Shown here in pieces: positions 31,282-50,100 of a DNA stretch of 64,000 nt. Location: contig NZ_BCUV01000002.1 in NCBI RefSeq assembly GCF_001591405.1, positions 62,001 to 126,000 of the forward strand, read 5' to 3'. The DNA comes from Janibacter terrae NBRC 107853 (GTDB lineage: Bacteria; Actinomycetota; Actinomycetes; Actinomycetales; Dermatophilaceae). A model generated the notes under the pieces. The model did not search any database. It had not been told where the DNA came from and saw only the letters and a list, made by a program, of their open reading frames with translations. Within the stretch, counting starts at the first letter, position 1. Each line of letters opens with the position of its first letter. The position numbers were made by a program, and so were the translations under genes.

Positions 31282-32409
31282 ATGGGTGTTGCCCCCGGGG
31301 AGCCGCAGGCCGATGTCCTGCCGCTGTCCGTGCGTCAGCTGGAGCTGTCCGGTTCGGACGACCCACGCGTCATCGACGACCAACGTCACGACGACTACGC
31401 CAACCACGTCGTTCCCATCACGATGCGTCTGGGCAAGTGGCAGCTGGCCATGTCCTTCTGGTCGCTGCTCTCCGCCATGGTCTGGCTCTTCTACGGAGCC
31501 CTGGCCTCCAGCCTCTTCGGCAGCGTCAACGCGATCATCGCGATGGTGCTCGCCGTGGTCACCTACTCGGTCGGCACCGCGGTCTTCTCCCCGGTGCTCA
31601 ACGAGGACCGCAGCTTCCCGCTCGAGCTCACCCGGCGACCGCGCGAGGTGGCCGTCGTCGGCGGTGGTGTGGCCGGCATGCGCAGCGCAGCCCTGCTGCA
31701 CGACCGCGGTCACCGGGTCACGCTCTTCGAGCCCGAGGGCCTCGGGGGCGTCCTGCGCTTCACCCGCCACTGGGAGAGCAAGGTCGACCTGCGGGCGCTT
31801 GTCGACCACCTCGAGCACGAGGTGGTCCGTCGGGGCATCCCGGTGGTTACCCAGCGCGCCGGCGTCGACGAGCTCGAGAGCTTCGAGACCGTCGTGCTGG
31901 CGACCGGGGCGCAGGACCGGGAGGCCGGTCCGGAGGTCGCGCCGGGGGTCACGACGACGACCCCGGCCAGCGTGCGGCCCGAGGACGTCGGGTCCTCCGT
32001 GGTGGTCGTCGGCGGCGGGTTCCAGGGCTGCGAGTGCGCGCTGCGCATCGCCCGCGAGCTGCCAGGTGCGTCGGTGACGCTCGTCGAGCAGGGCGACGCG
32101 CTCCAGCAGGGCGACGAGGTCTTCACCGACCTCATGGCGCTGCCCCGACTCCTGGTCGAGGCGGGGGTCGACGTGCGCACCGGCACGCGGGCGACCGTGG
32201 TCACGGCCACCGGCGTCGAGCTCGCCGCCGGCAGCACCCTCACCGCTGACACCGTCGTCCTGGCGCTCGGTCGACGACGCGCGGACAACCCCCTTCGTCC
32301 CGTCCTCGAGGACCGCGGCCAGCAGGTCGTCGTCGTCGGGTCCGCGGACCGACCCGGCCGCGTCTTCGACGCCATCCACACCGCCTTCTTCGCGGGGAGG
32401 CAGCTGTGA
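31282..32409 (+). CDS. chimeric ORF: transporter N-terminus fused to FadH/OYE-type FAD/NAD(P) domain
   Basis: About 375 residues. Residues 1 to about 100 look like the start of an NCS1/cytosine-permease-type transporter (DDYANHVVPITMRLGKW, then two membrane spans). From about residue 115 the protein is the flavin/nucleotide-binding half of 2,4-dienoyl-CoA reductase or Old Yellow enzyme relatives: EVAVVGGGVAGMRSAALL, then SVVVVGGGFQGCECALRI for NAD(P)H. The TIM-barrel half of such reductases and the rest of the permease are absent. This is best read as an in-frame deletion fusion. ATG 31282 follows GAAAGG; ATG 31264 overlaps the operator. It may still work as a reductase or be a relic. Confidence 0.6.
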   Translation: MGVAPGEPQADVLPLSVRQLELSGSDDPRVIDDQRHDDYANHVVPITMRLGKWQLAMSFWSLLSAMVWLFYGALASSLFGSVNAIIAMVLAVVTYSVGTAVFSPVLNEDRSFPLELTRRPREVAVVGGGVAGMRSAALLHDRGHRVTLFEPEGLGGVLRFTRHWESKVDLRALVDHLEHEVVRRGIPVVTQRAGVDELESFETVVLATGAQDREAGPEVAPGVTTTTPASVRPEDVGSSVVVVGGGFQGCECALRIARELPGASVTLVEQGDALQQGDEVFTDLMALPRLLVEAGVDVRTGTRATVVTATGVELAAGSTLTADTVVLALGRRRADNPLRPVLEDRGQQVVVVGSADRPGRVFDAIHTAFFAGRQL

Positions 32410-32450
32410 CCGCCCCCGCCCTGACCTCCCCACCCCGAGAGAGAGCCGAG

Positions 32451-32975
32451 ATGACCACCCGCCCCCTGAGCATCACCAGTCCCGAGCACGCCGCCGCGGT
32501 CGACTTCCTCATGTACGAGGCCGAGCTGCTCGATGACCTCCAGGAACGTCGCTGGCTCGTCGAGATGGTCAGCCGTGACGTCGTCTACCAGCTCCCCCTG
32601 CGGCAGACCGTCGAGCGGTCGCGCGGCAACGGCGTCGCGGAAGGCATGTACCACCTCAACGAGGACTACGGGTCGCTGGGCTCGAAGGTCAAGCGCAACG
32701 AGACCGCCTACGCGTGGGCCGAGGACCCGCCCTCCCGGGTGCGCCACTTCGTGACGAATGTCCGCGTGCGGCCCGGCGAGCGGGACGGTGACCTCGACGT
32801 GCGGTCCAACGTCCTCATCTACCGCACCCGCCAGGACCAGACGACCCCACAGCTGCTCGCCGGCGAGCGGCACGACCTCCTGCGGGACGAAGGGGAGGGC
32901 CTGCGCCTGCTGAAGCGCTCCACCGTCCTCGACCTGACCGTGATCGGCACCCACAACCTGTCGATCTTCTTCTGA
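32451..32975 (+). CDS. aromatic-ring-hydroxylating dioxygenase beta subunit
   Basis: 174 residues of the small, cone-fold structural subunit of Rieske dioxygenases. Family features: EAELLDDLQERRWLVEMVSRDVVYQLPLR-type opening (W-L form) and VRHFVTNVRV in the middle, ending LSIFF. ATG 32451 follows GAGAGAG; the frame is also open from GTG 32406, which overlaps the previous stop. It partners the alpha subunit encoded 31 bases downstream. The beta-before-alpha gene order is the reverse of most biphenyl-type operons. Confidence 0.85.
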   Translation: MTTRPLSITSPEHAAAVDFLMYEAELLDDLQERRWLVEMVSRDVVYQLPLRQTVERSRGNGVAEGMYHLNEDYGSLGSKVKRNETAYAWAEDPPSRVRHFVTNVRVRPGERDGDLDVRSNVLIYRTRQDQTTPQLLAGERHDLLRDEGEGLRLLKRSTVLDLTVIGTHNLSIFF

Positions 32976-33006
32976 CCCGCGCCGGACGAGAGAAAAGAGA
33001 ACTGTC

Positions 33007-34410
33007 ATGACCCAGGACACCAACGAGCCTGTCCGCGTGCGGCCTCCGCTCACGAACCGGGCCACCGAGCTCCTCGACCAGCTCGACGCCAACCTGCCCG
33101 AGGGCTACGTGCCCGCGTCGATCTTCGGCGACCCGGGGATCTATCAGGCGGAGCTGCGCCGGATCTTCGGCCGCGCCTGGGTCTTCCTGGCACACGAGTC
33201 CGAGATCGCCGCGAACGGTGACTACGTCGTCCGTGCCATCGGTGAGGACAACTTCATCGTCTCGCGCGACGAGCAGGGCGAGATCAACGTGCTGCTCGAC
33301 GCCTGCCGGCACCGCGGGGTGCAGGTCTGCCGCTCCGACGCGGGCAACTCGAGCCACTTCCGGTGCCCGTACCACGGTTGGACCTACGCCTCCGACGGCA
33401 AGCTCATCGGTGCGCCGCTGTGGAAGCACGCGCTCGAGGGCATGGACAAGGAGGCCAACGGACTGCTCAAGGCACCCAAGGTCGAGAGCTTCCTCGGTCT
33501 CGTCTTCGCCAGCCTCGACGACACCGCGCCACCACTGAAGGAGTACCTCGGCGGCATGGGCTGGTACCTGTCGCTCCTCTTCGGTCTGGACGAGGACGGG
33601 GTCGAGGTGCTCGGCCCGCCGCAGCGGTTCGTCGTCGAGGCCAACTGGAAGTCCGGCGCGGACAACTTCTCCGGCGACGACTACCACCTCGGCACCCTCC
33701 ACCGCTCGGTGTGGGACATCGGCGCCTTCCCGGTGGCCTTCCAGGACAACATGATGGGGTACCACGTCCAGGCGGCGCCCGGTCACTCCCTGTCCTTCTC
33801 GATGGCCGAGGACCCGGACGAGCCCGGACCCAACTTCTTCGGGTTCCCCGAGTCGCTGGCCGAGCACTTCGACACGACCAACATCTCCGAGCACCAGCTG
33901 GAGATCGCTCGGCGAGCGCGGGTCTTCGTCGGCAACGTCTTCCCGAACTTCTCCGTGCTGGCCCTGCCGATGAGCGAGGACGGCGAGAAGCACGCGCCCA
34001 CCGGCATCCTCACGATGCGCACCTGGCAGCCGAAGGGGCCGGGCAAGATCGAGATCTGGAACTGGTTCCTCGCCTACAAGAACCTCAGCGACGAGCAGAA
34101 GGAGCGCACGTACAAGGCGGGCCTGGGCACCTTCTCCGTCGGTGGTTCCTTCGAGATGGACGACACCGAGCCGTGGATCACCGTGGGTCGCACGGGCCGC
34201 TCGGTGGCCGCGGAGCTCATGGACCTGCAGCTCAACTACAAGATGGGCCTGCCTGGCGTCGGCATCGCCCGCGAGGTCGACGACTGGCCCGGGCCCGGCA
34301 AGGCCTACTGGTCGCGCTACGAGGAGGGCGTCCAGCGCAACCTCTACCGCTACTACTCCGCGCTGATGCGTGCCGAGGACGGGGAGTGGCCCGTCACCCC
34401 GCTGGAGTGA
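33007..34410 (+). CDS. aromatic-ring-hydroxylating dioxygenase alpha subunit (Rieske)
   Basis: 467 residues, catalytic subunit that adds both atoms of O2 to an aromatic ring, giving a cis-dihydrodiol. The Rieske [2Fe-2S] motif is C100-x-H102-x17-C120-x2-H123. Mononuclear iron ligands fit D224-x2-H227-x4-H232 in GDDYHLGTLH. Electrons would come from the ferredoxin (36358) and NuoF-like reductase (35057) in the same operon. Ring substrate cannot be read from sequence; the two BphB-like dehydrogenases in the island suggest a cis-diol product. Confidence 0.92.
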   Translation: MTQDTNEPVRVRPPLTNRATELLDQLDANLPEGYVPASIFGDPGIYQAELRRIFGRAWVFLAHESEIAANGDYVVRAIGEDNFIVSRDEQGEINVLLDACRHRGVQVCRSDAGNSSHFRCPYHGWTYASDGKLIGAPLWKHALEGMDKEANGLLKAPKVESFLGLVFASLDDTAPPLKEYLGGMGWYLSLLFGLDEDGVEVLGPPQRFVVEANWKSGADNFSGDDYHLGTLHRSVWDIGAFPVAFQDNMMGYHVQAAPGHSLSFSMAEDPDEPGPNFFGFPESLAEHFDTTNISEHQLEIARRARVFVGNVFPNFSVLALPMSEDGEKHAPTGILTMRTWQPKGPGKIEIWNWFLAYKNLSDEQKERTYKAGLGTFSVGGSFEMDDTEPWITVGRTGRSVAAELMDLQLNYKMGLPGVGIAREVDDWPGPGKAYWSRYEEGVQRNLYRYYSALMRAEDGEWPVTPLE

Positions 34411-35060
34411 TGACGATGACCACTCCCACCTCCACCGACCACGTCTCGGTCCTCGACCGGTATGCCGAAGGGGGGCTGGCCGGCGCCCTCGAGCCCGGCG
34501 GCCGCCCGGCGCTGCTCGTCGTCGACCTGCAGCGCGGGTTCACGGACCCGGCGTGCGGCCCCGGCTTCGAGATGCCGGACGTCGTCGCCGAGACCGCCCG
34601 ACTCGTCGACGCGGCGCACGCCGCCGGAGTGCCGGTCGTCTTCACGACGATCGCCTTCGCGGCCGACGAGGAGCCCGTGTGGCTGACGAAGATGCCGGCG
34701 ATGCTCGAGCTGCGCGAGGGCTCGACCTGGGTCGAGATCGACCCGGCGTCGGGGATCGTCGACGCCGACCACGTCGTCGTCAAGCAGGCCGCCTCCGCCT
34801 TCAGCGGGACCGACCTCGGCGAGCGGTTGGCGGCCGACGGCATCGACACCGTCGTCGTCTGCGGCGCGACGACCTCAGGGTGCGTCCGCGCGAGTGTCGT
34901 GGACGCCATCTCGCTCGGGCTGCGTCCCTTCGTCGTCGCCTCGGCCGTCGGTGACCGTGAGCGGTCACCGCACGACGCCGCCCTCGTCGACATCCAGGCC
35001 AAGTACGGAGAGGTCGTGTCGCTCGACACGGCCCTGTCCATCATCGAGGAGCACCGATGA
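34410..35060 (+). CDS. isochorismatase-like amidohydrolase (maleamate/N-carbamoylsarcosine amidase type)
   Basis: 216 residues with the cysteine-hydrolase triad Asp39 (LLVVDLQRGF), Lys125 (VVVKQAASAF) and Cys158 (GATTSGCVRAS). The family includes maleamate amidohydrolase NicF and N-carbamoylsarcosine amidase. Because the island also encodes a NicX-like dioxygenase and a maleate isomerase, hydrolysis of maleamate to maleate and ammonia is the most attractive role. Its start overlaps the alpha-subunit stop by one base (TGATG), and its stop overlaps the next start by four. Confidence 0.8.
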   Translation: MTMTTPTSTDHVSVLDRYAEGGLAGALEPGGRPALLVVDLQRGFTDPACGPGFEMPDVVAETARLVDAAHAAGVPVVFTTIAFAADEEPVWLTKMPAMLELREGSTWVEIDPASGIVDADHVVVKQAASAFSGTDLGERLAADGIDTVVVCGATTSGCVRASVVDAISLGLRPFVVASAVGDRERSPHDAALVDIQAKYGEVVSLDTALSIIEEHR

Positions 35061-36361
35061 CCACTCAGTTCCCCCTCCTGCGCAGCGTCCCCGATGAGCT
35101 GCCGACGGCTCGGGTGGCTCCGTGCATGGAGCCACGACTCGTGCAGACGCGCGACGACGGCTCACCCCTCGGGCTCGTCGGCGAGCAGCAGCTGGGCCAC
35201 CTGCAGGTGGCACCGAGCACGGACTCGACCTCCGGCCTCATCGACGTGCTCACCCGGGCCCGGCTGCAGGGGCGCGGCGGCGCAGGCTTCCCAGCCCACG
35301 TCAAGTGGCGCTCGGTCGCCGCGGCGGACGGTGATCGCGTCGTCGTGGCGAACGGCCACGAGGGCGAACCGGCATCGGGGAAGGACCGCTGGTTGCTGCT
35401 CAACCGGCCACACCTCGTCCTCGAGGGCCTGCTCCTGGCCGGGAGAGCCCTTCGCGCTGCCCGCACCATCGTGTGCGTGAGCCGGGAGGACACCCGGGCC
35501 TCCGTGGAGGCGGCGATCGCCGACCTCGTGGACGCGGCGCTCGTCCCCGAGGGCGTGAGCATCGAGGTCGTCGTCCTCGACCACCGGTACGTCACGGGGG
35601 AGGAGAGCGCGCTCGTCCAGGGGATCAACGGCAAGGTCGCACTCCCGACCTTCAAGCCGCCCCGTCCCTTCGAGGAGGGCGTCGGTGGGCAGCCGACCCT
35701 GATCCAGAACGTCGAGACCCTCGCGCACGTCGCGTGGATCCACCACCACGGTCCGGCGGCGTTCGGCGAGCTCGGGACGCACACCTCGCCGGGCAGCGCC
35801 CTCTTCACGATCATGGGCGGCCCGGAGGGCTGCGCGGTCATCGAGGCGCCGCTCGGCATCGAGATCCACGAGCTGCTGTCCTTCGTGGGCGTGCAACCGG
35901 AGGACGTCTCCCGGCTGCTGCTCGGGGGGTGGTTCGGAGGCGTCCACGCCTCCGAGGTGCTCGGGCTCGAGTGCGACTACACGACGCTGCGGGTCGCGGG
36001 GACCGGTCTCGGCTGCGCCTCGCTCACCGTCATCGGGCCCGACGAGGACGTCGCCGCCATCGTGGGGCAGCTCGGAGCCTGGTACGCCTCCGAGAGTGCC
36101 CAGCAGTGCGGTGTCTGCCGCAACGGCACGCGGGCGATCGGCAAGGTACTGGCCAAGAATGCCGCCGGCCTGGCCGACGAGGACGACCTCGCCGACCTCT
36201 CTCGGTGGGGCGTGACCCTGCCGGGACGTGGCGCGTGCGGCTTCCTCGACGGCGCCGCCACCCTTGCGCGCACGACGGTGTCGGTGATCAGTGCCAAGGA
36301 GTTCGTCAGCGCCAAGGCCGTCCGGGCCGGCGCCCCCACCCCCTCCCAGGAGCAGTCATGA
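35057..36361 (+). CDS. NuoF-like flavoprotein reductase
   Basis: 434 residues related to the NADH-binding subunit of complex I and of formate/hydrogen dehydrogenases: GRGGAGFPAHVKW (FMN/NADH glycine motif, about 75-87), EGEPASGKDR, VVLDHRYVTGEESAL, an SLBB segment, and a C-terminal Fe-S region ESAQQCGVCRNGT ... GRGACGF. The first Cys of the canonical CxxCxxC...C set is Ala here, leaving three obvious ligands. In this operon it most likely passes electrons from NAD(P)H to the 64-residue ferredoxin and on to the Rieske oxygenase, a job usually done by an FNR-type or GR-type reductase. Confidence 0.75.
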   Translation: MTTQFPLLRSVPDELPTARVAPCMEPRLVQTRDDGSPLGLVGEQQLGHLQVAPSTDSTSGLIDVLTRARLQGRGGAGFPAHVKWRSVAAADGDRVVVANGHEGEPASGKDRWLLLNRPHLVLEGLLLAGRALRAARTIVCVSREDTRASVEAAIADLVDAALVPEGVSIEVVVLDHRYVTGEESALVQGINGKVALPTFKPPRPFEEGVGGQPTLIQNVETLAHVAWIHHHGPAAFGELGTHTSPGSALFTIMGGPEGCAVIEAPLGIEIHELLSFVGVQPEDVSRLLLGGWFGGVHASEVLGLECDYTTLRVAGTGLGCASLTVIGPDEDVAAIVGQLGAWYASESAQQCGVCRNGTRAIGKVLAKNAAGLADEDDLADLSRWGVTLPGRGACGFLDGAATLARTTVSVISAKEFVSAKAVRAGAPTPSQEQS

Positions 36362-36552
36362 AGGCACGCATCGACGCCATCAAGTGCCAGGGCTACGGCA
36401 CCTGTGTCGACCGGTGTCCGGAGCTCTTCGAGCTCGACGAATGGGGCTTCGCCGCCGTCATCGGCGACGGCGACGTCCCCGAGGCCCTCGAGGAGGCAGC
36501 ACGGTCCGCCCAGCGGGCCTGCCCCGAGGACGCCGTGCACCTCGCAACCTGA
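36358..36552 (+). CDS. small ferredoxin, 3Fe-4S/4Fe-4S type
   Basis: 64 residues. Cys pattern C-x5-C-x3-C ... CP (CQGYGTCVDRCPELFEL and ACPEDAVHL) is that of actinobacterial P450-type ferredoxins, where a three-iron cluster is common because the second ligand position is not Cys. It is the probable electron carrier between the NuoF-like protein and the Rieske oxygenase. Overlaps the reductase gene by 4 bases and ends the first operon. Confidence 0.88.
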   Translation: MKARIDAIKCQGYGTCVDRCPELFELDEWGFAAVIGDGDVPEALEEAARSAQRACPEDAVHLAT

Positions 36553-36628: not shown

Positions 36629-37402
36629 GTGGATCTGGCACTGAACGGCAAGGTCGCGCTCGTGACCGCCGCCTCCCGCGGGATCGGCCGCGCCACGGCC
36701 GAGCGGCTCGCGAGCGAGGGCGCGACCGTGATCGCGGCCGCCCGGACCGAGGGGCGCGAGGTCGAGGAGCTCGGCACCGGTCGCATCGTCCCGCTGACGG
36801 TGGACCTCGGTGAGGCGGGAGCCGCGGCGGACCTCGTGGAGCGGGTGCGTGCCGAGCACGGGTCGGTCGACGTCCTCGTCGCCAACACCCCGGGCCCGAA
36901 GCTGTCGCCGGCCCTCGAGCTCACCTGGCAGGACTGGTCCGCGGCGCACGACGCCCTGCTGCGCCCGGTCGTCGAGATGATGACCGCCGCCGGCAAGGTC
37001 ATGGTCGAGCAGGGCCGTGGCTCGATGGTGCTCGTCTCCTCGTCCTGGGTCCGCCAGCCGTCGCCCGCCGGGGTGCTCTCCGCCGCCTACCGCTCGGCGC
37101 AGTCCTCCTTCGTCAAGTCGCTCGCGGCCGAGATCGCTCCGCGTGGGGTCCGCGTCAACCAGGTCCTCGTGGGCGCCACCGGCACCGAGCGGATGGAGAA
37201 GATCCTGCGCGGCAAGGCCGAGGTCAACGGTACGGACCGTCAGACCGAGCTCGACCGCGTCGTCGCCGACATCCCGCTCGGCCGCTGGGGCGAGGCGCAC
37301 GAGATCGGCGACCTCATCGCCTTCCTCGCGTCCGACCTGCCCGGCTTCTCCACCGGGTCCTCCTTCGTCATCGACGGCGGCGCGATCCGCGCTGCCCACT
37401 GA
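36629..37402 (+). CDS. short-chain dehydrogenase with altered catalytic motif
   Basis: 257-residue SDR fold protein: cofactor motif TAASRGIGRATAERL near residue 13 and SSFVIDGGAIRAAH at the end. The Tyr-x3-Lys positions are Ser and Arg (LSAAYRSAQ aligned on the VKSLAAE helix), the same change as in the protein at 14257. GTG 36629 follows GAGGGG. It heads the second island operon. Role in the pathway unknown; it could act on a hydroxylated ring intermediate or be non-catalytic. Confidence 0.7.
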   Translation: MDLALNGKVALVTAASRGIGRATAERLASEGATVIAAARTEGREVEELGTGRIVPLTVDLGEAGAAADLVERVRAEHGSVDVLVANTPGPKLSPALELTWQDWSAAHDALLRPVVEMMTAAGKVMVEQGRGSMVLVSSSWVRQPSPAGVLSAAYRSAQSSFVKSLAAEIAPRGVRVNQVLVGATGTERMEKILRGKAEVNGTDRQTELDRVVADIPLGRWGEAHEIGDLIAFLASDLPGFSTGSSFVIDGGAIRAAH

Positions 37403-37427: not shown

Positions 37428-38432
37428 ATGTCCCGATCGCTCACCGAGAACTTCGTCAAGCAGTTCGAGCTGTGCAAGGTCACCTCTGGCGAGGTCGTCG
37501 CCGTCATCGCCGAGCTGGGCGAGAAGGAGGCGTACGTCGCGGCGTCCGTCGCTGCCGCCCGACAGCTGGGTGCGAGCGCCCTCGTGCTGCACGCCTCGAG
37601 CCTGTCCAGCCCGATGCTGCCGCCCTACGAGGCCGATGGTCGCGAGGTCGCTGCCCTGCTCGCCGCCGCGGGGGAGGCCGACTTCGTCGTCGACTGCACC
37701 GTGGGTGGGCTCATCCACTCCGACGTGCGCACGCGCATCACGGGCAACGGCAAACGGATGCTCTTCGTCGCCGAGCCCAACGACGTCCTCGAGCGCCTCA
37801 TGGGCGGCGAGGAGCTCAAGGCCAGCGTCTCCGCGGCCGGTGACGTCCTGCGCGACGGCCGCACCCTGCACGTGGTGAGCGACGCCGGTACCGACCTCAC
37901 CGCCGACGTGTCGGGTGAGGACCTGCCGATCACCATGCAGTGGGGCTACGTCGACGTGCCCGGCCGCTGGGACCACTGGCCGAGCGGTTTCGCCGCCTGC
38001 TTCCCCAAGGACCGCAGCGCCCAGGGTCGGATCGTCCTGCAGCCGGGCGACGCGCTCATCCCGTGGCAGCGCTACGTGCGCGACGAGGTGACGATCGAGG
38101 TCAAGGACGGCTTCATCACCTCGATCACCGGTGGTGCGGACGCCCACCTGCTCAACGACTACTTCGAGTCGTGGGAGGACCCTGAGGTGTGGGCGCTCAG
38201 CCACATGGGCTGGGGCCTGCTGCCGCAGGCCCGCTGGTCCGCCTTCGACGTCTACGACCCGCGCAGCCTCTACGGCCAGGAGCTGCGCTCGACGGCCGGC
38301 AACTTCATGTGGTCGACCGGGTCCAACCGGTTCGCCGACCGGGAGACCCCCGCCCACCTCGACGTGCCGATGCGGAGCTGCACGGTGAGCGTCGACGAGC
38401 AGGTCGTCGTGCGCGACGGGAAGCTGGTCTGA
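37428..38432 (+). CDS. nicX: 2,5-dihydroxypyridine 5,6-dioxygenase-like protein
   Basis: 334 residues with long stretches recognisable from NicX of Pseudomonas nicotinate catabolism: WDHWPSGF, SHMGWGLLPQARW and HLDVPMRSC. Candidate iron ligands His259, His310 and Asp312 occupy the places of the His, His and Asp ligands described for NicX. The reaction opens 2,5-dihydroxypyridine to N-formylmaleamate. NicX belongs to a peptidase-like fold unrelated to ordinary ring-cleavage dioxygenases, so the match is quite specific. It is the strongest clue that a pyridine ring passes through this pathway. Confidence 0.85.
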   Translation: MSRSLTENFVKQFELCKVTSGEVVAVIAELGEKEAYVAASVAAARQLGASALVLHASSLSSPMLPPYEADGREVAALLAAAGEADFVVDCTVGGLIHSDVRTRITGNGKRMLFVAEPNDVLERLMGGEELKASVSAAGDVLRDGRTLHVVSDAGTDLTADVSGEDLPITMQWGYVDVPGRWDHWPSGFAACFPKDRSAQGRIVLQPGDALIPWQRYVRDEVTIEVKDGFITSITGGADAHLLNDYFESWEDPEVWALSHMGWGLLPQARWSAFDVYDPRSLYGQELRSTAGNFMWSTGSNRFADRETPAHLDVPMRSCTVSVDEQVVVRDGKLV

Positions 38433-40400: not shown

Positions 40401-40711
40401 GCGACAAGATCCACCCCGACCTGGGCGACGCGCAGCCCGGCCCGGACGTCAAGGACGAGCCGGACCCGGTGCCCGGTGTCATCAGCACGGAGGAGTGGCA
40501 GGGGATCGGCAACGAGTTCACCGGCGTGCTCTTCCGCAAGGTGCGCACCAACAACGGCGAACGGCTCCAGCTCTTCGTCCCCCGTCGGGGGCACAGCGTC
40601 ACCCTCGACCCGATGCAGCTCGAGATCGTCGCGGCGCAGGACCCGGCGTTCTTCAGCCACCTGCACGCGAAGGAGCTCGGCGCGGTGTCGCAGGACGCGC
40701 CCGATGCCTGA
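40397..40711 (+). CDS. small conserved-looking protein of unknown function
   Basis: 104 residues, acidic Pro/Asp-rich start followed by NEFTGVLFRKVRTNNGERLQLF and LDPMQLEIVAAQ. I recall similar small proteins beside aromatic dioxygenase genes in actinobacteria, sometimes labelled dihydrodiol dehydrogenase in databases although they lack any Rossmann fold. No catalytic motif seen. It overlaps both neighbours (4 and 8 bases), so it is clearly part of the operon. A stabilising or accessory role for an oxygenase is possible. Confidence 0.55.
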   Translation: MSDKIHPDLGDAQPGPDVKDEPDPVPGVISTEEWQGIGNEFTGVLFRKVRTNNGERLQLFVPRRGHSVTLDPMQLEIVAAQDPAFFSHLHAKELGAVSQDAPDA

Positions 40712-42344: not shown

Positions 42345-43177
42345 AGGTCCACGGACTGGCCTGGCTCGGGTCGAGCAGCCCGGCCCTCGAGGAGATGACG
42401 GCGTTCATCCGCGACGGGCTGGGCCTCGAGGTCCAGCAGGAGCAGGACGACGCGCGGGTCTTCGGGTTCCCCGACGGCAGCGCCTTCGAGATCTTCAAGC
42501 CGAGCGACGACGCGCACGACTTCTTCGAGCACCCCGTCGCGGGCTTCCTCGTCGACGACGTGGCGGAGGTCCGGGCGCACCTGGAGTCCCGGGGCGTCGA
42601 GTTCGTCGGGGAGATCCATGAGGGGGTCGAGGACTCGTGGTCGCCACGCTGGACCCACTTCCGCGGACCGGACGGCTACCTCTACGGGCTGGTCACCAGC
42701 TGGCCGCAGCAGCGGGTCTCGCGTGACCGCGGCTTCGACGAGCTGCGTTTCTGCCTGCGCGTCGACGACTTCGACACCGCCCTGGCCCAGTACCGCGACG
42801 GGCTCGGGATGCAGGTCGTCGACGAGTGGACCCACCCGGACGGGCAGCGGGGTGCACTCTTCGGCGTCGTGCCCGCGGCCCTGGAGATCTTCGACGGGCC
42901 GCAGGCGGACCTCGTCGACACCGTGGAGGCGGGGGAGCCGCTCCGGCGTGACCACGGGTTGCGCGTCGAGGTCGCCGACCTCCCCGCCCTGGAACGGCTC
43001 GCAGCCGTGCTGGAAGCGGCTGGTGCCACGCGTCGCCCCGCCGGCGTCGTCCAGACCCCGTGGGAGCAGACCTGCCTGCGGCTCGACCTGCCCGACGGTG
43101 AGCAGATGACCATCTCCATCCTCCCGGCGCAAGAGCGCGCGGACCGTGCCGTCGCACGTGCCCGGATCAACTTCTGA
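42341..43177 (+). CDS. two-domain VOC (glyoxalase/bleomycin-fold) protein
   Basis: 278 residues with two VOC modules: about 1-125 (GLAWLGSSSPALEEMTAFIRD to GPDGYLYGLVTS) and about 130-265 (LRFCLRVDDFDTALAQYRDGLGM to LDLPDGEQMTISIL). The iron-ligand pattern of type I extradiol dioxygenases was not evident, so ring cleavage is not assigned. It might be a lyase, hydrolase or binding protein acting on a pathway intermediate. Tightly coupled to the maleate isomerase gene. Confidence 0.75.
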   Translation: MKVHGLAWLGSSSPALEEMTAFIRDGLGLEVQQEQDDARVFGFPDGSAFEIFKPSDDAHDFFEHPVAGFLVDDVAEVRAHLESRGVEFVGEIHEGVEDSWSPRWTHFRGPDGYLYGLVTSWPQQRVSRDRGFDELRFCLRVDDFDTALAQYRDGLGMQVVDEWTHPDGQRGALFGVVPAALEIFDGPQADLVDTVEAGEPLRRDHGLRVEVADLPALERLAAVLEAAGATRRPAGVVQTPWEQTCLRLDLPDGEQMTISILPAQERADRAVARARINF

Positions 43178-43193: not shown

Positions 43194-44003
43194 ATGACCA
43201 CAGCCACCGCCCGTCTCGACGGCAGGGTCGTCGTCTTCACCGGAGCAGGTGGCGGGATCGGCCTGTCCGCCGTGCGCAGGTTCGTGGGGGAGGGCGCGCG
43301 CGTCGTCGCCGTCGACATCTCCGATCGGGTCGCGGAGGCCACTGCCGATCTCGGTGACGCCGTGATCCCGGTCGTCGCCGATGTCTCGACGTGGGAGGGC
43401 AACTGCGCCGCGGTGGACGCCGCGGTAGACGCGTGGGGTCGCCTCGACGTCTTCGTCGGGAACGCCGGGATCACTGATGGGGCGCGCCCGCTGGAGGACA
43501 TCCCCGGGGAGGACCTCGCCCGCGCCTTCCACGAGCTGTTCGACGTGAACGTCCTCGCGCTCCTGCTGGGCGCCCGGGCCGCGCTGCCTGCCCTGCTGGA
43601 GAGCCGGGGATCGATCATCCTCACCGGGTCCTTCGCGAGCTCGCACGCGGCCGGGGGAGGGGCGCTCTACACCGCGTCCAAGCACGCGGTGCTCGGCGTC
43701 GTGCGCCAGCTGGCGTACGAGCTCGCCCCGGACGTCCGCGTCAACGGGATCGCGCCCGGTGTCGCCCCGACCCGCCTGAAGGGCCTGTCCACCTTGGGCC
43801 AGGAGGCGACCGACTCCGTGCTCGACGGCACCGCCGCGATCCTGCCGCTCCAGCGGGTGCCCGAGCTCAGCGACTTCGACGGGGCGTTCGTCATGCTGGC
43901 CTCGGACGACGCAGCGATCATGACCGGCGCGATGGTCACCATCGACAGCGGGCTGTCCGTGCGCGGACTGAGCCGACCGGGCGGCCGCGTCGGGGCGTCG
44001 TGA
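43194..44003 (+). CDS. cis-2,3-dihydrodiol dehydrogenase-like SDR (BphB type), copy 1
   Basis: 269-residue SDR with cofactor motif TGAGGGIGLSAVRRF, Asn of NAG, and an intact YTASK catalytic motif. The segments FDVNVLALLLGARAALPALLESRGSIILTGS and PDVRVNGIAPG are characteristic of the BphB branch, which oxidises cis-dihydrodiols from Rieske dioxygenases to catechols with NAD+. SD GAAGGAG before ATG 43194. A paralogue is encoded at 44772. Confidence 0.82.
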   Translation: MTTATARLDGRVVVFTGAGGGIGLSAVRRFVGEGARVVAVDISDRVAEATADLGDAVIPVVADVSTWEGNCAAVDAAVDAWGRLDVFVGNAGITDGARPLEDIPGEDLARAFHELFDVNVLALLLGARAALPALLESRGSIILTGSFASSHAAGGGALYTASKHAVLGVVRQLAYELAPDVRVNGIAPGVAPTRLKGLSTLGQEATDSVLDGTAAILPLQRVPELSDFDGAFVMLASDDAAIMTGAMVTIDSGLSVRGLSRPGGRVGAS

Positions 44004-44731
44004 CCTCCCCTTCGTCCCGCGTCGCCCTCGTGACCGGTGCGCGAAGGGGGATCGGCGCCGCGACCGTCGCCGCGCTCGCCGACGCGGGGCTGCGGGTCGT
44101 CGCAGCCGTCCGTGCTCCGACGGAGGTGCCCGGCGCCGAGCTGACGGTCATCGGCGACGTCACCCGGCCGGGGGATGTCCAGCGCATGCTCGCCGAGGTG
44201 CGCGACCACGTCGGGGAGATCGAGGTCCTCGTCAACAACGCGGGTGGCTTCCTGCGGGCCGGGACGACGCTCGACACACCGGTCGAGGAGTGGGAGGAGC
44301 AGCTCGCGCTCAACCTCACGGCGCCTTTCCTCCTGACGCAGGCCGTGCTGCCGGGGATGCTCGCACGCGGGTGGGGCCGCATCGTCACGATCGGCTCCGT
44401 CGTCGCGCACGCACCCGCTCGCGGTAATGCCGCGGCCTACGTCGCGGCCAAGGCGGGTGTCGTCGGGTGGACGCGGCAGCTCGCGTTGGAGACGGCGGGG
44501 ACCGGGGTGACGGCCAACGTCGTGAACCCCGGGACGACCGGCACGGAGCACCTCGATGACTACCTGCGCGCCAGCGACCAGGTGGCCACCGACCTGGCGT
44601 CCGGCATCCCGATGGGTCGCCTCGGCCGCCCGGCCGAGCTCGCGGCAGCCGTGCGCTACCTCGTCGGCGACGACGCAGGTTTCACCACCGGGATCTCCAT
44701 CGACGTCAACGGCGGCGTCGCCATGATCTGA
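44000..44731 (+). CDS. FabG-like short-chain dehydrogenase
   Basis: 243-residue classical SDR: VTGARRGIGAATVAAL, NNAGG, catalytic YVAAK, and SIDVNGGVAMI at the end. Unlike its two neighbours it follows the FabG pattern, so it may act on a ring-opened hydroxy or oxo intermediate. GTG start overlaps the upstream stop by 4 bases. Confidence 0.78.
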   Translation: MTSPSSRVALVTGARRGIGAATVAALADAGLRVVAAVRAPTEVPGAELTVIGDVTRPGDVQRMLAEVRDHVGEIEVLVNNAGGFLRAGTTLDTPVEEWEEQLALNLTAPFLLTQAVLPGMLARGWGRIVTIGSVVAHAPARGNAAAYVAAKAGVVGWTRQLALETAGTGVTANVVNPGTTGTEHLDDYLRASDQVATDLASGIPMGRLGRPAELAAAVRYLVGDDAGFTTGISIDVNGGVAMI

Positions 44732-44771: not shown

Positions 44772-45590
44772 ATGTTCTCCATGAACGGCAAGATCGCGCT
44801 CGTCACCGGTGGTGCCGGTGGCATCGGCGAGGCCGTGGTACGTGCCTACGTCGAGGCCGGAGCGCGGGTGGGCATCCTCGACCGGGATGCCGAACGCCTC
44901 GAGGCCGTGACCAGGGACCTGGCCGACGCAGTCGTCGGGATCCACGGCAGCGTCGAACGGATGGCTGACAACGTGCGCGCCGTGCGCGAGACGGTCGACG
45001 CCTTCGGCGGGCTGACAACCTTCGTCGGCAACGCCGGGGTGGGCGCCGGGAATCTCACGCTCGCCCAGATGCCCGTCGACCGGCTCGAGGAGGCGATCGA
45101 CGAGATCTTCGCGATCAACGTCCGCGGCTACCTCCTCGGCGCGCGCGCCGCACTCCCGGAGGTGCTGCGCGCTCACGGGTCGATGATCTTCTCCACCTCG
45201 ATCGCCGGCTACCGGGCCGTCGACGACGGAGTGCTGTACGTCGCGAGCAAGCACGCCGACGTGGGCATCGTGCGCCAGCTCGCCTGGGAGTTCGCGCCCC
45301 GCGTGCGGGTCAACGGTGTCGCGATCGGGGTCGCGAAGACCAACATGGAGGGCCTGGAGTGCCTCGACCAGCCGACCGTTGACGCCGTGCTGCCCGGTGC
45401 GGAGGAGGTCATCCCGCTCGAGGTGATCCCTGAGGCCGCGGACCACGCCGGCGCCTTCGTCTACCTCGCCTCCGACCGGGCGTCGGTCGCGACGGGCGAG
45501 TGCATCTGGACCGACAGCGGCTTCGGCATCCGCGGGATCGGCTCGCCCCGTGGCGGCAGCGACCTCGACCCCGACGCGCTCGCCCTCTGA
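44772..45590 (+). CDS. cis-dihydrodiol dehydrogenase-like SDR (BphB type), copy 2
   Basis: 272-residue SDR with TGGAGGIGEAVVRAY, an intact YVASK motif and INVRGYLLGARAALPEVLRAHGSMIF-type segment as in copy 1. Two such enzymes in one island suggest two dihydrodiol intermediates or two oxygenation steps. ATG 44772 follows AAAGGGAAG; GTG 44754 is an alternative. Last gene of the second operon; no terminator hairpin seen after it. Confidence 0.8.
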   Translation: MFSMNGKIALVTGGAGGIGEAVVRAYVEAGARVGILDRDAERLEAVTRDLADAVVGIHGSVERMADNVRAVRETVDAFGGLTTFVGNAGVGAGNLTLAQMPVDRLEEAIDEIFAINVRGYLLGARAALPEVLRAHGSMIFSTSIAGYRAVDDGVLYVASKHADVGIVRQLAWEFAPRVRVNGVAIGVAKTNMEGLECLDQPTVDAVLPGAEEVIPLEVIPEAADHAGAFVYLASDRASVATGECIWTDSGFGIRGIGSPRGGSDLDPDALAL

Positions 45591-45663: not shown

Positions 45664-45681
45664 ACGTGAGACGAGGAGCAG

Positions 45682-46542
45682 ATGAAGCCTCCCCCCTTCG
45701 ACTACGAAGCGCCGGTGACCCTCGATGAGGTCCTGGAGCTGCTCCGGACGCACGAGGACGGCGCGGTCGTCCTGGCGGGCGGGCAGAGCCTCGTCCCCCT
45801 GCTCAACATGCGATTCGCCCGACCTGACGTGGTCGTGGACCTCAACCGGGTGACAGGGCTGGACGACATCGTCGTCACACCCGACGCCGTGACGCTGGGC
45901 GCCATGGTCCGTCTCACGACGATCGAGCGCGACGAGCAGCTGGCACAGGCACTCCCCGTCCTGGCCGAGGCAGCCTCCTGGGTGGCCCATCCGCAGATCC
46001 GTTGCCGCACGACGGTGGGCGGGACCCTGTGCCACGCCGACCCGTCGGCCGAGATGCCGACCGTCGCCGTGGCGCTCGGGGCCACGATGCACCTGCGGTC
46101 GGCGGATGCCTCGCGCGAGGTGCCTGCCGAGGACTTCTTCGACACCGTCTTCACGACGACCAAGGCGCCCGATGAGCTGCTCGTGTCGGTGGTCCTGCCG
46201 CGCCGCGCGGGCTGGTCCTTCCACTACGACGAGATCGCCCAGCGGCACGGGGACTTCCCGTACGCCGGGCTGTGCCTCGGGGTGGACCTGCGGGACGGCG
46301 TCATCGTCGATGTCCGCGCAGCCGCTGCCGGGGTCTCCGACACGCCGCAACGACTGCACGCCCTAGAGGACACCCTTCGCGGGCAGGCCGTCGGGTCGGG
46401 AGCCGAGGCCGCTGCGGAGGCCGCAGCCGGCGAGGTGGACCCGCCGGACGACGCGATGGGGTCGTCGGCCTTCCGCCGCAGTCTCCTGCGCACCCTGGTG
46501 CGCCGCCAGCTCTCCCGTCTCGAGGAAGTGGACGCAGCATGA
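45682..46542 (+). CDS. molybdenum hydroxylase FAD subunit (CoxM-like)
   Basis: 286 residues of the medium, FAD-binding subunit of the xanthine dehydrogenase family. FAD motifs are VLAGGQSLVPLLNMRFARP (about 32-50) and TVGGTLCHADPSAEMPT (about 112-128). It carries electrons from the Fe-S subunit onward. Start ATG 45682 follows GAGGAG. The gene order FAD, Fe-S, Mo is one of the standard orders for CoxMSL-type enzymes. Confidence 0.92.
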   Translation: MKPPPFDYEAPVTLDEVLELLRTHEDGAVVLAGGQSLVPLLNMRFARPDVVVDLNRVTGLDDIVVTPDAVTLGAMVRLTTIERDEQLAQALPVLAEAASWVAHPQIRCRTTVGGTLCHADPSAEMPTVAVALGATMHLRSADASREVPAEDFFDTVFTTTKAPDELLVSVVLPRRAGWSFHYDEIAQRHGDFPYAGLCLGVDLRDGVIVDVRAAAAGVSDTPQRLHALEDTLRGQAVGSGAEAAAEAAAGEVDPPDDAMGSSAFRRSLLRTLVRRQLSRLEEVDAA

Positions 46543-47015
46543 ACGAGGCAACCCGTGACATCCACGCCACCGTCAACGGCGTCACCTACGAGCGGAGCGT
46601 GCCCGTACGCATGCTCCTCAGCGACTTCGTGCGCCACGAGCTGCAGCAGACCGGAACTCACGTCGGCTGCGAGCAGGGCGTCTGCGGCGCGTGCACGATC
46701 CTCGTCGACGGCGAAGCCGTGCGGTCCTGCCTCATGCTCGCGGTCCAGGCCGACGGCCGGACCGTCGAGACCGTGGAGTCCTTGGCCGACGAGGACAGCC
46801 TGTCGGCCTTCCAGCAGGCGATGCAGGACCAGCACGGCCTGCAGTGCGGCTTCTGCACCCCCGGGATCCTCATGAGCGTCAGTGCGGCCCGCCGCTGCGG
46901 ACGCACCGCGGACGAGGCCGAGACAGAGGTGCTCGGCGGCCACGTGTGCCGATGCACCGGTTACACCTCGATCAGGGCCGCCATCCGCCAGGCCTGGGAA
47001 GAAGGCACCGCATGA
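46539..47015 (+). CDS. molybdenum hydroxylase [2Fe-2S] subunit (CoxS-like)
   Basis: 158 residues: plant-type ferredoxin domain with CEQGVCGACTILVDG plus the following Cys, then a helical domain with the second cluster (CGFCTPGILMS and CRCTGYTS). Overlaps both neighbours by 4 bases. Normal length. Confidence 0.94.
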   Translation: MNEATRDIHATVNGVTYERSVPVRMLLSDFVRHELQQTGTHVGCEQGVCGACTILVDGEAVRSCLMLAVQADGRTVETVESLADEDSLSAFQQAMQDQHGLQCGFCTPGILMSVSAARRCGRTADEAETEVLGGHVCRCTGYTSIRAAIRQAWEEGTA

Positions 47016-49390
47016 GCACCGAGACCCACCCCCAGGCGCCGGCCGCTCACGAGCAGGGTGACCTCATCGGTCAGAGCATCCCGCGGGTCCAGGACGACCG
47101 CATGCTCCGGGGACGCGGCTGGTACGTCGACGACGTGCCCGAGGCCGGCGTGCTCCACGCGGCACTCCTGCGCAGTCCGGTCGCGGCCGGCCGGATCGCG
47201 GACTTCGACGCCGCCGATGCCCAGGCAGCACCCGGGGTGCACCTCGTCCTTGGTCCTGACGACCTCGAGGACGCGCTGCAGACGATTCCGTCGCCGTGGC
47301 TGCTCCCCGGGCAGCAGGAGGTGGACATCGCGCTGTACAGCAGGCAGGTGCGGTTCGTGGGGCAGCCGCTCGCCGTCGTGGTCGCGGACAGCCGTGCCCT
47401 CGCGGAGGACGCGCTCGAGCTCATCGACATCGACATCGACGAGCAGCCGGCGGTCGCGTCCCTCGAGGCGGCACGTGCACCGGGCAGCCCCCTGGTCCGG
47501 CCGGAGTATGGCTCCAACCAGGTCGGTCAGATCCACTTCGGAGACCCCGTCGACGACCTCGAGGCCGTCTTCGCCTCGGCCGATCTGGTCGTCGAGCGCT
47601 GGTTCACCAGCCCGCGCATCGGCCACAACTCGATGGAACCCCGTGGTGTCGTGGCCGAGTGGAACCCCCGGACGCAGCGGATGGACGTGCACTCGTCGAC
47701 GCAGGTACCGCACCTCGTGCGGCAGGAGCTCGCCCGGGTCCTCGGCCTGAGGGCCGACCAGGTCCGGGTCGCCGCGACGGACGTGGGCGGGGCCTTCGGG
47801 CTCAAGACGCTGCTCTTCCCCGACGAGGCACTCGTCTGCCTGGCCGCCCAGCGGCTGGGTCGCAAGGTCAAGTGGATCGAGGACCGCTCCGAGGCGCTCG
47901 TGGCCAGTCACCACGGTCGCGGCCAGGAGAGCCGCGCCCGGCTCGCGCTGGATGCGGACGGGACCTTCCTGGCCCTGCACGTGGAGATGCACGGCGACAT
48001 GGGGGCGCATGCCACGAGCGGCACGAGCGGCAGCGGCCCGGTCCAGGTGGCCGGTCTCATGGTCGAGGGCCCGTACCGGTACAGCCGGGCTGCGGGTGCG
48101 ACGGTGACCGGATGGTACACCAACCGTGTCCCGACCGGTGCCTTCCGTGGCTACGGCATGCCGGAAGCGACCTTCATCCGGGAGCGCCTCGTCGACGAGG
48201 CGGCACGGCTCGCGGGGCACGACCCGGTGGAGCTGCGCCTGCACAACATGTACCAGGCGGACCAGCTGCCCGCGGTCAGCCGCCTGATGATGCCCTACGA
48301 CAACGGTGACTACCCCGCAGCACTGAGGCAGGCGGTGGCGCGCGGCAGCGAGCTCGACCGCACGAGCACCTCGCGCGTGCGACGGGGCGTCGGCTATGCG
48401 TCGACGACCGAGATCACCGGTTTCGCCCCGAGTGGTCTCGCCCAGATGTTCCAGATCCACTGGAGCACCTGGGACTCGGCCAAGGTGCGGATCAACGAGG
48501 ACGGCTCCGTCACCGTCTTCTCCGGCGTGACGACCGTCGGGCAGGGCATCGAGACCTCGCTCAGCCAGATCGCGGCCCAGACGCTCGGAGTCCCGCTGGA
48601 CCGAGTCTCCGTGCAGCTCGGCGACACGGATGTCTCGGGCTACTCGATCATGGCCTCGCAGGCCAGCCGCGCCCTGACCATCGCGGGCGCGGCCCTGCTC
48701 GGGGCAGCCACCCGGCTGCGCGAGCGCATGGACACGTTGGCCGGGAGCGCCCTCGAGGTGCCGGCGGAGGAGGTCGTCCTCGACGGGGACCACTTCACGA
48801 CGTCCGACGGTGCCCGCCGTGTCTCCTGGGCCGAGGTGGCCCACCGGGGCTGGATGGGGTGGGGCCGCGGGCCGGACGACCCCATCGCGCTCGAAGAGGT
48901 CGGTGAGTACGACCCGAGCAGCATCACGTATGCGTACGCGACCCACGCGGCGCTCGTCGCCGTGGACCTCGACACCGGCAAGGTCGACCTGGAGGCCTAC
49001 TGGCTCGCGCACGACGCCGGCGTCCTCGTGAACCCGATGATCGTCGACGGGCAGATGATCGGGGGAGCAGCGCAGGGGATCGGAGCCGCGCTGATGGAGG
49101 AGGCGACCTTCTCCCCGGACGGGCAGCCCACGACCACGACCTACCTCGACTACACGCTCCCGGTGTCCGAGGACATCCCGGACATCAAGATCGACCACCT
49201 CGTCACCCCGAGTGCCATCACCCCGGGCGGGTTCAAGGGTGTGGGCGAGGGTGGGACCATCCCCGCCACGGCCGCCGTGGCCAATGCGGTGGCCGCCGCG
49301 GTCCCGGAGATCGCCGAGCACGTGACGTCGATCCCCCTGACCCCCGGGCGGGTGTGGACCCTGCTCGACGACTCCGGCCTCACCCGCTGA
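47012..49390 (+). CDS. molybdenum hydroxylase large (Mo-cofactor) subunit
   Basis: 792 residues with molybdopterin-binding motifs GGAFGLKT (about 257), GAFRGYGMPEA (about 373) and the catalytic Glu in GVGEGGTIPA near residue 750. The CO-dehydrogenase active-site loop (AYRCSFR) is absent, so despite CoxL resemblance it is not a form I CO dehydrogenase. Given the NicX-like gene, hydroxylation next to a ring nitrogen (pyridine, hydroxypyridine or related) is the favoured role. No cofactor insertion gene of the XdhC or CoxI type is in the window. Confidence 0.9.
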   Translation: MSTETHPQAPAAHEQGDLIGQSIPRVQDDRMLRGRGWYVDDVPEAGVLHAALLRSPVAAGRIADFDAADAQAAPGVHLVLGPDDLEDALQTIPSPWLLPGQQEVDIALYSRQVRFVGQPLAVVVADSRALAEDALELIDIDIDEQPAVASLEAARAPGSPLVRPEYGSNQVGQIHFGDPVDDLEAVFASADLVVERWFTSPRIGHNSMEPRGVVAEWNPRTQRMDVHSSTQVPHLVRQELARVLGLRADQVRVAATDVGGAFGLKTLLFPDEALVCLAAQRLGRKVKWIEDRSEALVASHHGRGQESRARLALDADGTFLALHVEMHGDMGAHATSGTSGSGPVQVAGLMVEGPYRYSRAAGATVTGWYTNRVPTGAFRGYGMPEATFIRERLVDEAARLAGHDPVELRLHNMYQADQLPAVSRLMMPYDNGDYPAALRQAVARGSELDRTSTSRVRRGVGYASTTEITGFAPSGLAQMFQIHWSTWDSAKVRINEDGSVTVFSGVTTVGQGIETSLSQIAAQTLGVPLDRVSVQLGDTDVSGYSIMASQASRALTIAGAALLGAATRLRERMDTLAGSALEVPAEEVVLDGDHFTTSDGARRVSWAEVAHRGWMGWGRGPDDPIALEEVGEYDPSSITYAYATHAALVAVDLDTGKVDLEAYWLAHDAGVLVNPMIVDGQMIGGAAQGIGAALMEEATFSPDGQPTTTTYLDYTLPVSEDIPDIKIDHLVTPSAITPGGFKGVGEGGTIPATAAVANAVAAAVPEIAEHVTSIPLTPGRVWTLLDDSGLTR

Positions 49391-49419
49391 CCTGCGACTA
49401 ACCCACCAAAGGAAAGACC

Positions 49420-50100
49420 ATGATTCTTGAGCACGCCTTCACCGTCCCGACCGGTCCCGACGAGACCTGGCGGACCCTCCTCGACGTCGAGCGGGTCGCT
49501 CCGTGCATGCCGGGAGCGAGCCTGGACTCGGTCGAAGGTGACGACTTCACGGGACGGATCAGGGTCAAGCTCGGCGCGATCCAGATGGCCTACAAGATGA
49601 AGGGTCGCTTCGCGGAGAAGGACGAGTCCGCGCGGCGGGTGGTCATCGAGGGTTCGGGCAAGGAGAGTCGGGGTGGCGGGACGGTCAAGTCCACGATCAC
49701 CCTGCAGCTCCTGCCCGCCGGGGAGTCCACAGAGGTCAAGGTGCTGACGGACCTCGCGATCACCGGCAAGCCTGCGCAGTTCGGTCGCGGTGCGCTCGAC
49801 GACATCGGGGCCAGGATCCTGGGCCAGTTCGCCGACAACCTGGCCGCGATGGTCTCCGAGGACCCGTCGCAGGAGCAGGCGGCCACGATCAGCGCTGCGC
49901 CGACCGAGCCGGGGTCGCCTGACGCCGCTGGGGTGGTCGCCCCTGCACGGACCGAGCGTCCCGCGGCCGTCGAGGCGGAGCCGCTCGACCTGATGGGTGT
50001 CATCGCTCCGAGCCCGGACCGGATCATCGCTGTCGTCAGCTCGGTGACCGCACTCGTGCTCGCGCTCATCCTGCTCGGTCGGTCGCGCGCCCACGGCTGA
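49420..50100 (+). CDS. CoxG-like SRPBCC protein with C-terminal membrane anchor
   Basis: 226 residues: an SRPBCC (START-like) domain at about 1-150 opening EHAFTVPTGPDETWRTLLDVERVAPCMPGA, an Ala/Pro/Glu linker, and a terminal hydrophobic helix (IIAVVSSVTALVLALILLG). CoxG proteins accompany CO dehydrogenase-type enzymes and are thought to recruit them to the membrane or to quinone. Here it suggests the hydroxylase feeds electrons to the respiratory chain. SD AAAGGAAAG precedes ATG 49420. Last gene of the island. Confidence 0.85.
   Translation: MILEHAFTVPTGPDETWRTLLDVERVAPCMPGASLDSVEGDDFTGRIRVKLGAIQMAYKMKGRFAEKDESARRVVIEGSGKESRGGGTVKSTITLQLLPAGESTEVKVLTDLAITGKPAQFGRGALDDIGARILGQFADNLAAMVSEDPSQEQAATISAAPTEPGSPDAAGVVAPARTERPAAVEAEPLDLMGVIAPSPDRIIAVVSSVTALVLALILLGRSRAHG

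Follow-up and report, generated by a model that had tools for sequence, protein, structure and literature searches.

The genome of Janibacter terrae NBRC 107853 (3.58 Mb) carries, in the 64,000-nucleotide stretch analysed here (positions 62,001 to 126,000 of contig NZ_BCUV01000002.1; hereafter the window), a cluster of approximately 21 co-directional genes on the forward strand at positions 31282-50100 (Table 1), in which enzymes of pyridine-ring type lie together with enzymes of aryl-ring type. The cluster very likely encodes a pathway for quinoline or 2-quinolone (2-hydroxyquinoline). Quinoline is probably broken down via 5,6-dihydroxy-2(1H)-quinolinone by two successive ring-opening dioxygenases, the second of which would cleave the side-chain-bearing pyridine ring directly. 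The co-location of the two modules was noticed in a first reading of the sequence (the original prediction), and the enzyme families named there, apart from a LigA half, were borne out by Pfam and NCBIfam scans and by sequence searches of the PDB. The combination was new to that reader, but it is not special to the window; it is a widespread conserved module that was found in 32 other loci.

A conserved core of eleven genes

A collection of species genomes was scanned with an alignment of the LigB-type extradiol dioxygenase, yielding 31 loci, and a plasmid of Rhodococcus pyridinivorans YF3 brings the number to 32; because the genome loci were chosen by LigB-type patterns, the presence of this gene in all 31 is by construction. 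The core consists of 11 genes, namely those for the Rieske dioxygenase beta and alpha subunits, an isochorismatase-type hydrolase, a NuoF-like reductase, a ferredoxin, a short-chain dehydrogenase (SDR), a NicX-like dioxygenase, the LigB-type dioxygenase, a Nit-type amidase, a small protein and a maleate isomerase. All 11 are present in one order and on one strand in 26 of the 32 loci. Three of the six incomplete loci (L013, L017, and L025) are short or cut by contig ends, three (L028, L032, and L034) lack some genes in the available stretch, and the core genes retained keep the common order. The maleate isomerase of L017 was matched at a looser limit, not at the stricter one used for the 32-locus count. 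The core SDR, NicX-like and Nit-type genes each occur in 32/32 loci, and the NicX-like, LigB-type and Nit genes adjoin one another in every locus of this LigB-selected set, including L030, whose frames are broken; several L030 genes are split between frames, and this locus was excluded from the alignments that comprise 32 rows.

The hosts belong to Streptomyces, Nocardia, Actinomadura, Thermomonospora, Pseudonocardia, Rhodococcus, Gordonia, Amycolatopsis, and Janibacter, and further include metagenome-assembled genomes (MAGs) from the Streptosporangiaceae, the Acidimicrobiaceae (two) and the Sphingomonadales, as well as Pusillimonas caeni. In the two Pseudomonadota loci the core is present with some genes missing. 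Judged by the LigB-type protein, the closest relatives of the window cluster are those of a Janibacter MAG (90%) and Janibacter limosus (89%). The distribution within the genus is patchy, the NicX-like protein being found at an identity of at least 95% in three of the 16 Janibacter genomes listed, the window's included. The J. limosus locus (L004) contains roughly 4 kb of extra sequence between the ferredoxin and SDR genes (~4300-8190).

A largely syntenic cluster on the plasmid of a quinoline degrader

Among plasmids searched by tblastn, a single one, NZ_CP040721.1 of R. pyridinivorans YF3, strongly matched both ring-cleavage enzymes; its record names a quinoline-degrading bioreactor as the source. 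This plasmid carries the core in the same order, with the molybdenum (Mo) hydroxylase genes on the other side and in the opposite direction, and matches 18 of the 21 parts of the window cluster. The fusion open reading frame (ORF) and the VOC protein have no match on the plasmid, the FabG-like SDR matches only a different SDR, at 32%, and a single YF3 gene is the counterpart of both BphB-like SDRs of the window. Quinoline is indicated as the substrate by this largely syntenic cluster on the plasmid of a quinoline degrader and by the resemblance of the Mo enzyme to a quinoline oxidoreductase.

Mo hydroxylases take oxygen from water. A Mo hydroxylase followed by an O2-dependent Rieske dioxygenase would therefore account for the physiology of YF3, which converts quinoline to 2-hydroxyquinoline, requires enough oxygen for the onward steps and, when precultured with an inducer, hydroxylates quinoline anaerobically (available text of PMC7193041). 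The main text of that report nowhere uses the terms gene cluster, plasmid, dioxygenase or oxidoreductase. The original prediction had proposed either a single substrate in which a benzene ring and a pyridine ring are combined or one pyridine attacked by both oxygenases in turn; the former is supported by the YF3 synteny and the Mo enzyme and can be refined to the fused rings of quinoline. A monocyclic pyridine, as well as the phenylpyridines and bipyridines that had been suggested, became unneeded once the YF3 plasmid was found.

Enzymes of the cluster

Of the solved structures, quinoline 2-oxidoreductase (1t3q), presumably from Pseudomonas putida 86, is closest to the Mo large subunit (465 bits, against 401 for the next), and Pfam places the FAD, 2Fe-2S and Mo portions on three separate subunits, as in that enzyme. 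A Glu of the window protein aligns with E743 of 1t3q, which we take to be the catalytic Glu in the active site. The Mo hydroxylase is accordingly a predicted enzyme for the oxidation of quinoline to 2-quinolone. Naphthalene dioxygenase 2b1x, presumably from Rhodococcus, is the closest PDB match of the Rieske alpha subunit. The two BphB-like diol dehydrogenases of the original prediction correspond to the BphB/HcaB-like SDRs at 43194-44003 and 44772-45590, both of which match PRK06200.

The NicX-like protein matches 2,5-dihydroxypyridine dioxygenase (7cn3) over nearly its full length. When the window protein was aligned with those of the 32 loci (33 rows), the Fe ligands H265, H318, and D320 were present in all members and S302 in 32, the window protein having all four. 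R293 was likewise present in 32/33, and L030 is the exception for both S302 and R293, which are otherwise invariant. His105 and His189 of NicX are also kept. At position 177, all 33 members contain Gln in place of the substrate-binding Glu177 of the solved NicX, and the protein is therefore classed as NicX-like and not as NicX. In the set compared (33 members and 13 other NicX-family proteins), only Arg307, Trp178, and Thr175 are specific to the clade; Arg at NicX position 307 is found in 33/33 and 0/13, respectively. The adjoining Glu308 separates two channels in NicX together with His105, and NicX opens the ring of 2,5-dihydroxypyridine at C5-C6 (available text of PMC7910607). It is a guess that Arg307 binds the carboxylate of the side chain.

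The second ring-cleavage enzyme had been described as a LigA-LigB fusion. Its LigB half stands by fold and ligands: H107, H152, and E322, which by their LigB roles are presumably metal ligands, and H277, presumably the catalytic His, do not vary among the 32 aligned rows (L030 excluded). A LigA half is unproven, as the N-terminal 97 residues have no Pfam match at E ≤ 10; this part is predicted to be helical, and fold-search matches span residues 93-364 only.

The two aligned cysteines of the maleate isomerase are presumably catalytic. For the Nit-type amidase, the best NCBIfam model is deaminated glutathione amidase (178 bits, below the cut-off of 500), the best PDB relatives are Nit2 (2w1v) and NitFhit, and the Glu-Lys-Cys triad (E45, K115, and C155) is invariant in 32 aligned rows. 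The acyl group of deaminated glutathione is the saturated form of that which direct NicX cleavage would leave on maleamate. Nit1 hydrolyses deaminated glutathione (available text of PMC9913352).

Proposed route from quinoline to fumarate

From the gene content and from chemistry, we infer the substrate, the order of the steps and a reaction for each of these enzymes. Quinoline would be oxidized to 2-quinolone by the Mo hydroxylase (step 1), and the Rieske dioxygenase, with electrons from the NuoF-like reductase and the ferredoxin, would convert 2-quinolone to the 5,6-cis-dihydrodiol (step 2), from which an SDR would form 5,6-dihydroxy-2-quinolone (step 3). A naphthalene-like cut at C5-C4a by the LigB-type enzyme would then yield 5-hydroxy-6-(3-carboxy-3-oxopropenyl)-2-pyridone (step 4), namely a 2,5-dihydroxypyridine bearing a side chain at C6, which is the ring type opened by NicX. 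This pyridone is reportedly a Rhodococcus metabolite; a text search of the open-access literature gave no usable paper on it. The NicX-like enzyme may cut C5-C6 of this substituted ring directly to produce N-(4-carboxy-4-oxobut-2-enoyl)maleamate (step 5), which the Nit1/Nit2-like amidase would hydrolyze to 2-oxoglutaconate (C5) and maleamate (C4) (step 6), giving a carbon balance of C9 = C5 + C4. Finally, maleamate would be converted to maleate and ammonia by the isochorismatase-type hydrolase (step 7) and maleate to fumarate by the maleate isomerase (step 8). Isoquinolone, 4-quinolone and the 7,8-diol of 2-quinolone were also considered and set aside, since on paper meta cleavage would not turn them into 2,5-dihydroxypyridines and the products would thus not suit a NicX-type step.

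The direct cleavage of the side-chain-bearing pyridine (steps 5 and 6) is somewhat favored, because no enzyme outside the core is needed from 2-quinolone to fumarate and no carbon is lost, and because the core contains neither a NarC-type aldolase nor NicD, a Nit amidase stands beside the dioxygenases, and Nit1 acts on a related acyl group. It is slightly better than an even chance that NicX-family opening of such a ring, combined with a recruited Nit "metabolite repair" amidase, constitutes a route without an aldolase and without loss of carbon that extends from the Actinomycetota into the Pseudomonadota.

Possible removal of the side chain before pyridine cleavage

In an alternative order of the quinoline route, an aldolase, aldehyde oxidation and (oxidative) decarboxylation would precede the NicX-type step, so that this enzyme would receive 2,5-dihydroxypyridine or 2,5,6-trihydroxypyridine. 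Such an order is unlikely, although it has several points in its favor. A trihydroxypyridine has reportedly been described for Comamonas. Removal of the side chain is the logic of naphthalene degradation, to whose dioxygenase the Rieske alpha subunit is closest, and NicX acts on unsubstituted 2,5-dihydroxypyridine (available text of PMC7910607). Prior removal would, however, leave the Nit-type amidase without a role.

The aldolase was searched for in 27 other genomes and in the window's (28 in total; those of L007, L025, L026, and L027 were left out). The query, a DHDPS-family protein encoded beside the nar dioxygenase in the Rhodococcus naphthalene clusters (L067 and L068), is presumably of the hydratase-aldolase (NarC) type. 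At E ≤ 1e-20 it was unmatched in 25 of the 28 cluster-bearing genomes, including that of the window, and on the YF3 plasmid, and neither the window nor any of the 32 loci gave a match at E ≤ 1e-5. The window genome has two DHDPS-family genes, one with a 284-bit match, presumably DapA, and a 3dz1-like one at 15092-15991. The latter was rejected as the missing aldolase, since it scores 426 bits to 3dz1 and 33.5 bits to the hydratase-aldolase 9frt; it sits between an SDR gene and a GntR gene. In the L030 genome (Rhodococcus sp. JCM 9791), the aldolase matches its counterpart in the naphthalene-type cluster of the Rhodococcus opacus plasmid pROB02 with 100% identity across residues 23-328.

A NicD-type alpha/beta hydrolase lies near NicX in both control nicotinate (nic) clusters (L038 and L057). 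None is found in the window, and the 32 loci give two weak matches, one in L014 (E 3e-5) and one in L020 (E 4e-4), which lie 1.3-1.9 kb upstream of the core. The cluster proteins that were scanned included no member of an FAD-monooxygenase family (NicC-like).

Several observations weigh against a quinoline route with direct cleavage. A NarC-type aldolase is encoded by three of the 28 genomes (identity 100% in one and 35-36% in two; E ≤ 1e-20), and an aldolase of another class, encoded anywhere, could remove the side chain. The fate of 2-oxoglutaconate is left unexplained by the proposed route. E177Q and the shortened loop are common to actinobacterial NicX homologs beside NicC/NicE-like genes (Gln in six), and E177Q and this two-residue loop deletion have therefore been withdrawn as marks of a new substrate. 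Rhodococcus gordoniae JH145 has been proposed to use two other quinoline routes (available text of PMC9029321), and for the quinoline degrader Rhodococcus ATCC 49988 the authors found no annotated quinoline 2-oxidoreductase (PMC6588367). Furthermore, a closely similar Mo large subunit is encoded in only seven of the 29 cluster-bearing genomes searched (E ≤ 1e-180; this search and that for the OYE-like flavoenzyme left out L007 and L025), so that most hosts feed the module otherwise or the module serves another 2-pyridone bicycle.

Possible use of a different bicyclic 2-pyridone in other hosts

This last point leads to a further alternative, namely that in most hosts the core serves a natural quinolone or quinoline alkaloid, which would be taken up by an NCS1-like permease and prepared by an OYE-like flavoenzyme, and that the use of quinoline arose with the Mo hydroxylase. 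An OYE/BaiCD-like flavoenzyme is encoded in 22 of the 29 genomes (E ≤ 1e-150), and 18 of the 32 loci have a full-length copy close to the cluster (L032, the source of the query, being one of these). The genomes divide into three with both genes, four with the Mo gene only, 19 with the OYE gene only and three with neither, and either gene tends to be absent where the other occurs (Fisher p 0.038; when the window is included, p 0.016; kinship was not corrected for). The window itself has the Mo genes together with a disrupted OYE-like gene. On the other hand, three genomes with both genes and three with neither do not fit the exclusion, the thresholds were strict, and the Mo genes carried by the window and YF3 leave quinoline as the best guess for these two. 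Overall, this alternative is quite improbable. Natural 2-quinolones may be the substrates of the core in many hosts, and quinoline in those that have the Mo genes.

The broken gene is an ORF that starts with the N-terminal ~103-115 residues of the permease and continues in frame into the C-terminal ~275 residues of the flavoenzyme (31282-31590 corresponds to permease residues 1-103, and 31558-32406 to flavoenzyme residues 364-645). The locus of a Janibacter MAG (L032) has intact separate genes for the two proteins (1264-2859 and 2872-4809), and the fusion in the window apparently arose by deletion. In the available stretch of L032, the Rieske subunits, the NuoF-like reductase and the ferredoxin are missing. 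The flavoenzyme of J. limosus (G396:C30:11238-12182) has a different in-frame internal deletion, which lacks approximately residues 154-482.

Finally, a chance juxtaposition of unrelated pathways for a pyridine and for a carbocyclic aromatic is very unlikely: each module is reportedly known separately, but genes of both are interspersed in a single co-directional block, and 26/32 loci, mostly of Actinomycetota, have this block complete and in an unchanged order.

Comparison with known systems

The degradation of quinoline, a common toxic coal-tar chemical and pollutant of coal and oil, via 5,6-dihydroxy-2(1H)-quinolinone has been known by its chemistry for decades, which reportedly comprises Mo hydroxylation to 2-quinolone, dihydroxylation of the benzene ring and meta cleavage, all as in the route proposed here. 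What is new is the proposed set of genes and the proposed direct NicX-like cleavage of a side-chain-bearing pyridine. Among the matches listed in a search of the open-access literature, which mostly excludes subscription papers, no gene assignment was found for this pathway, one of the two quinoline routes named as common (available text of PMC9029321). With this cluster, candidates exist for the complete set of genes, and one copy lies on a plasmid of a strain whose phenotype has been described. The central steps of the pathway thereby become open to direct testing, and new substrates are suggested for two enzyme families.

The window cluster shares with the nic clusters the NicX-type ring opening, an isochorismatase-type amidohydrolase and maleate isomerase; it differs from them in having no NicC-like monooxygenase or NicD and in adding the Nit-type amidase, the Rieske and LigB-type enzymes and Arg307. 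With the nar clusters it shares a related Rieske alpha subunit (~46%) and a BphB/HcaB-like dehydrogenase (43%). By contrast, a rubredoxin, an FAD protein and a DHDPS-family aldolase are encoded close by in nar, whereas the window cluster has the NuoF-like reductase, the ferredoxin and no such aldolase. The hpo operon for 2-hydroxypyridine in Rhodococcus rhodochrous PY11 reportedly encodes a multi-component Rieske dioxygenase acting on 2-pyridone and then a dehydrogenase, both as in the window cluster; its ring is said to be opened by a cyclase-type enzyme, whereas the window cluster contains NicX- and LigB-type dioxygenases.

Features of the cluster and neighboring observations

Beyond the genes originally listed, the cluster contains those for the NuoF-like reductase, an unusual NADH reductase for its type of system, and the ferredoxin, together with additional SDR genes and genes for a GntR regulator and a CoxG protein (Table 1).

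Table 1. Genes of the window cluster, with positions in the window and supporting matches (percentages are identities to R. pyridinivorans YF3 plasmid proteins where marked YF3).
Feature	Position	Strand	Support
Fusion ORF, start of NCS1-like permease and end of OYE/BaiCD-like flavoenzyme	31282..32409	+	probably a remnant
Rieske dioxygenase beta subunit	32451..32975	+	PF00866 E 1.3e-34; YF3 66%
Rieske dioxygenase alpha subunit, predicted 2-quinolone 5,6-dioxygenase	33007..34410	+	PDB 2b1x best, 391 bits; YF3 74%
Isochorismatase-family amidohydrolase, predicted maleamate amidohydrolase	34407..35060	+	PF00857 E 1.2e-38; PDB 26st 162 bits, 3ot4/3uao 124 bits; YF3 55%
NuoF-like NADH/FMN reductase, predicted Rieske electron donor	35057..36361	+	PF01512, PF10589; YF3 48%
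Single-cluster ferredoxin	36358..36552	+	PF13459 E 4.5e-16; located via YF3 ferredoxin, 47%
SDR of conserved core	36629..37402	+	in 32/32 loci; YF3 60%
NicX-like pyridine-ring dioxygenase	37428..38432	+	7cn3 (NicX) E 3.3e-68; Fe ligands kept; YF3 79%
Class III (LigB-type) extradiol dioxygenase, extra helical N-terminus	38434..39534	+	YF3 68%
Nitrilase-superfamily amidase, Nit1/Nit2-like, predicted N-acylmaleamate amidase	39531..40400	+	PDB Nit2 2w1v best, 135 bits; YF3 66%
Small conserved protein	40397..40711	+	in 29/32 loci; YF3 56%
GntR/FCD-family regulator	40704..41525	+	Pfam/NCBIfam scans
Maleate cis-trans isomerase	41559..42344	+	4fq7 290 bits, both conserved cysteines aligned; YF3 69%
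Two-domain VOC protein, accessory, outside conserved core	42341..43177	+	PF00903 E 1.9e-15
BphB/HcaB-like SDR	43194..44003	+	NCBIfam PRK06200 278 bits; 69% to a YF3 SDR
FabG-like SDR	44000..44731	+	family scan
BphB/HcaB-like SDR, predicted cis-dihydrodiol dehydrogenase	44772..45590	+	PRK06200 276 bits; 43% to nar-cluster dehydrogenase; 41% to same YF3 SDR as 43194-44003
Mo hydroxylase FAD subunit	45682..46542	+	PF00941 E 1e-46; YF3 65%
Mo hydroxylase 2Fe-2S subunit	46539..47015	+	PF01799 E 3e-22; YF3 71%
Mo hydroxylase large subunit, predicted quinoline 2-oxidoreductase	47012..49390	+	PDB 1t3q best, 465 bits; YF3 69%
CoxG-like protein, predicted Mo-enzyme helper	49420..50100	+	PF06240 E 9e-16; YF3 60%

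The small core protein has no NCBIfam or Pfam match and no fold match at E ≤ 0.001, and its structural model is of moderate confidence (mean pLDDT 74.6). The VOC protein was considered as an extradiol enzyme and rejected, the match being too weak (E 4e-4). On a plasmid of the haloarchaeon Halocatena salina (L055), a Rieske dioxygenase and a NicX-like gene lie a few kb apart, and the annotation names no extradiol LigB-type gene there. Directly after the window cluster, an ISL3-family transposase gene is located on the opposite strand at 50195-51457.

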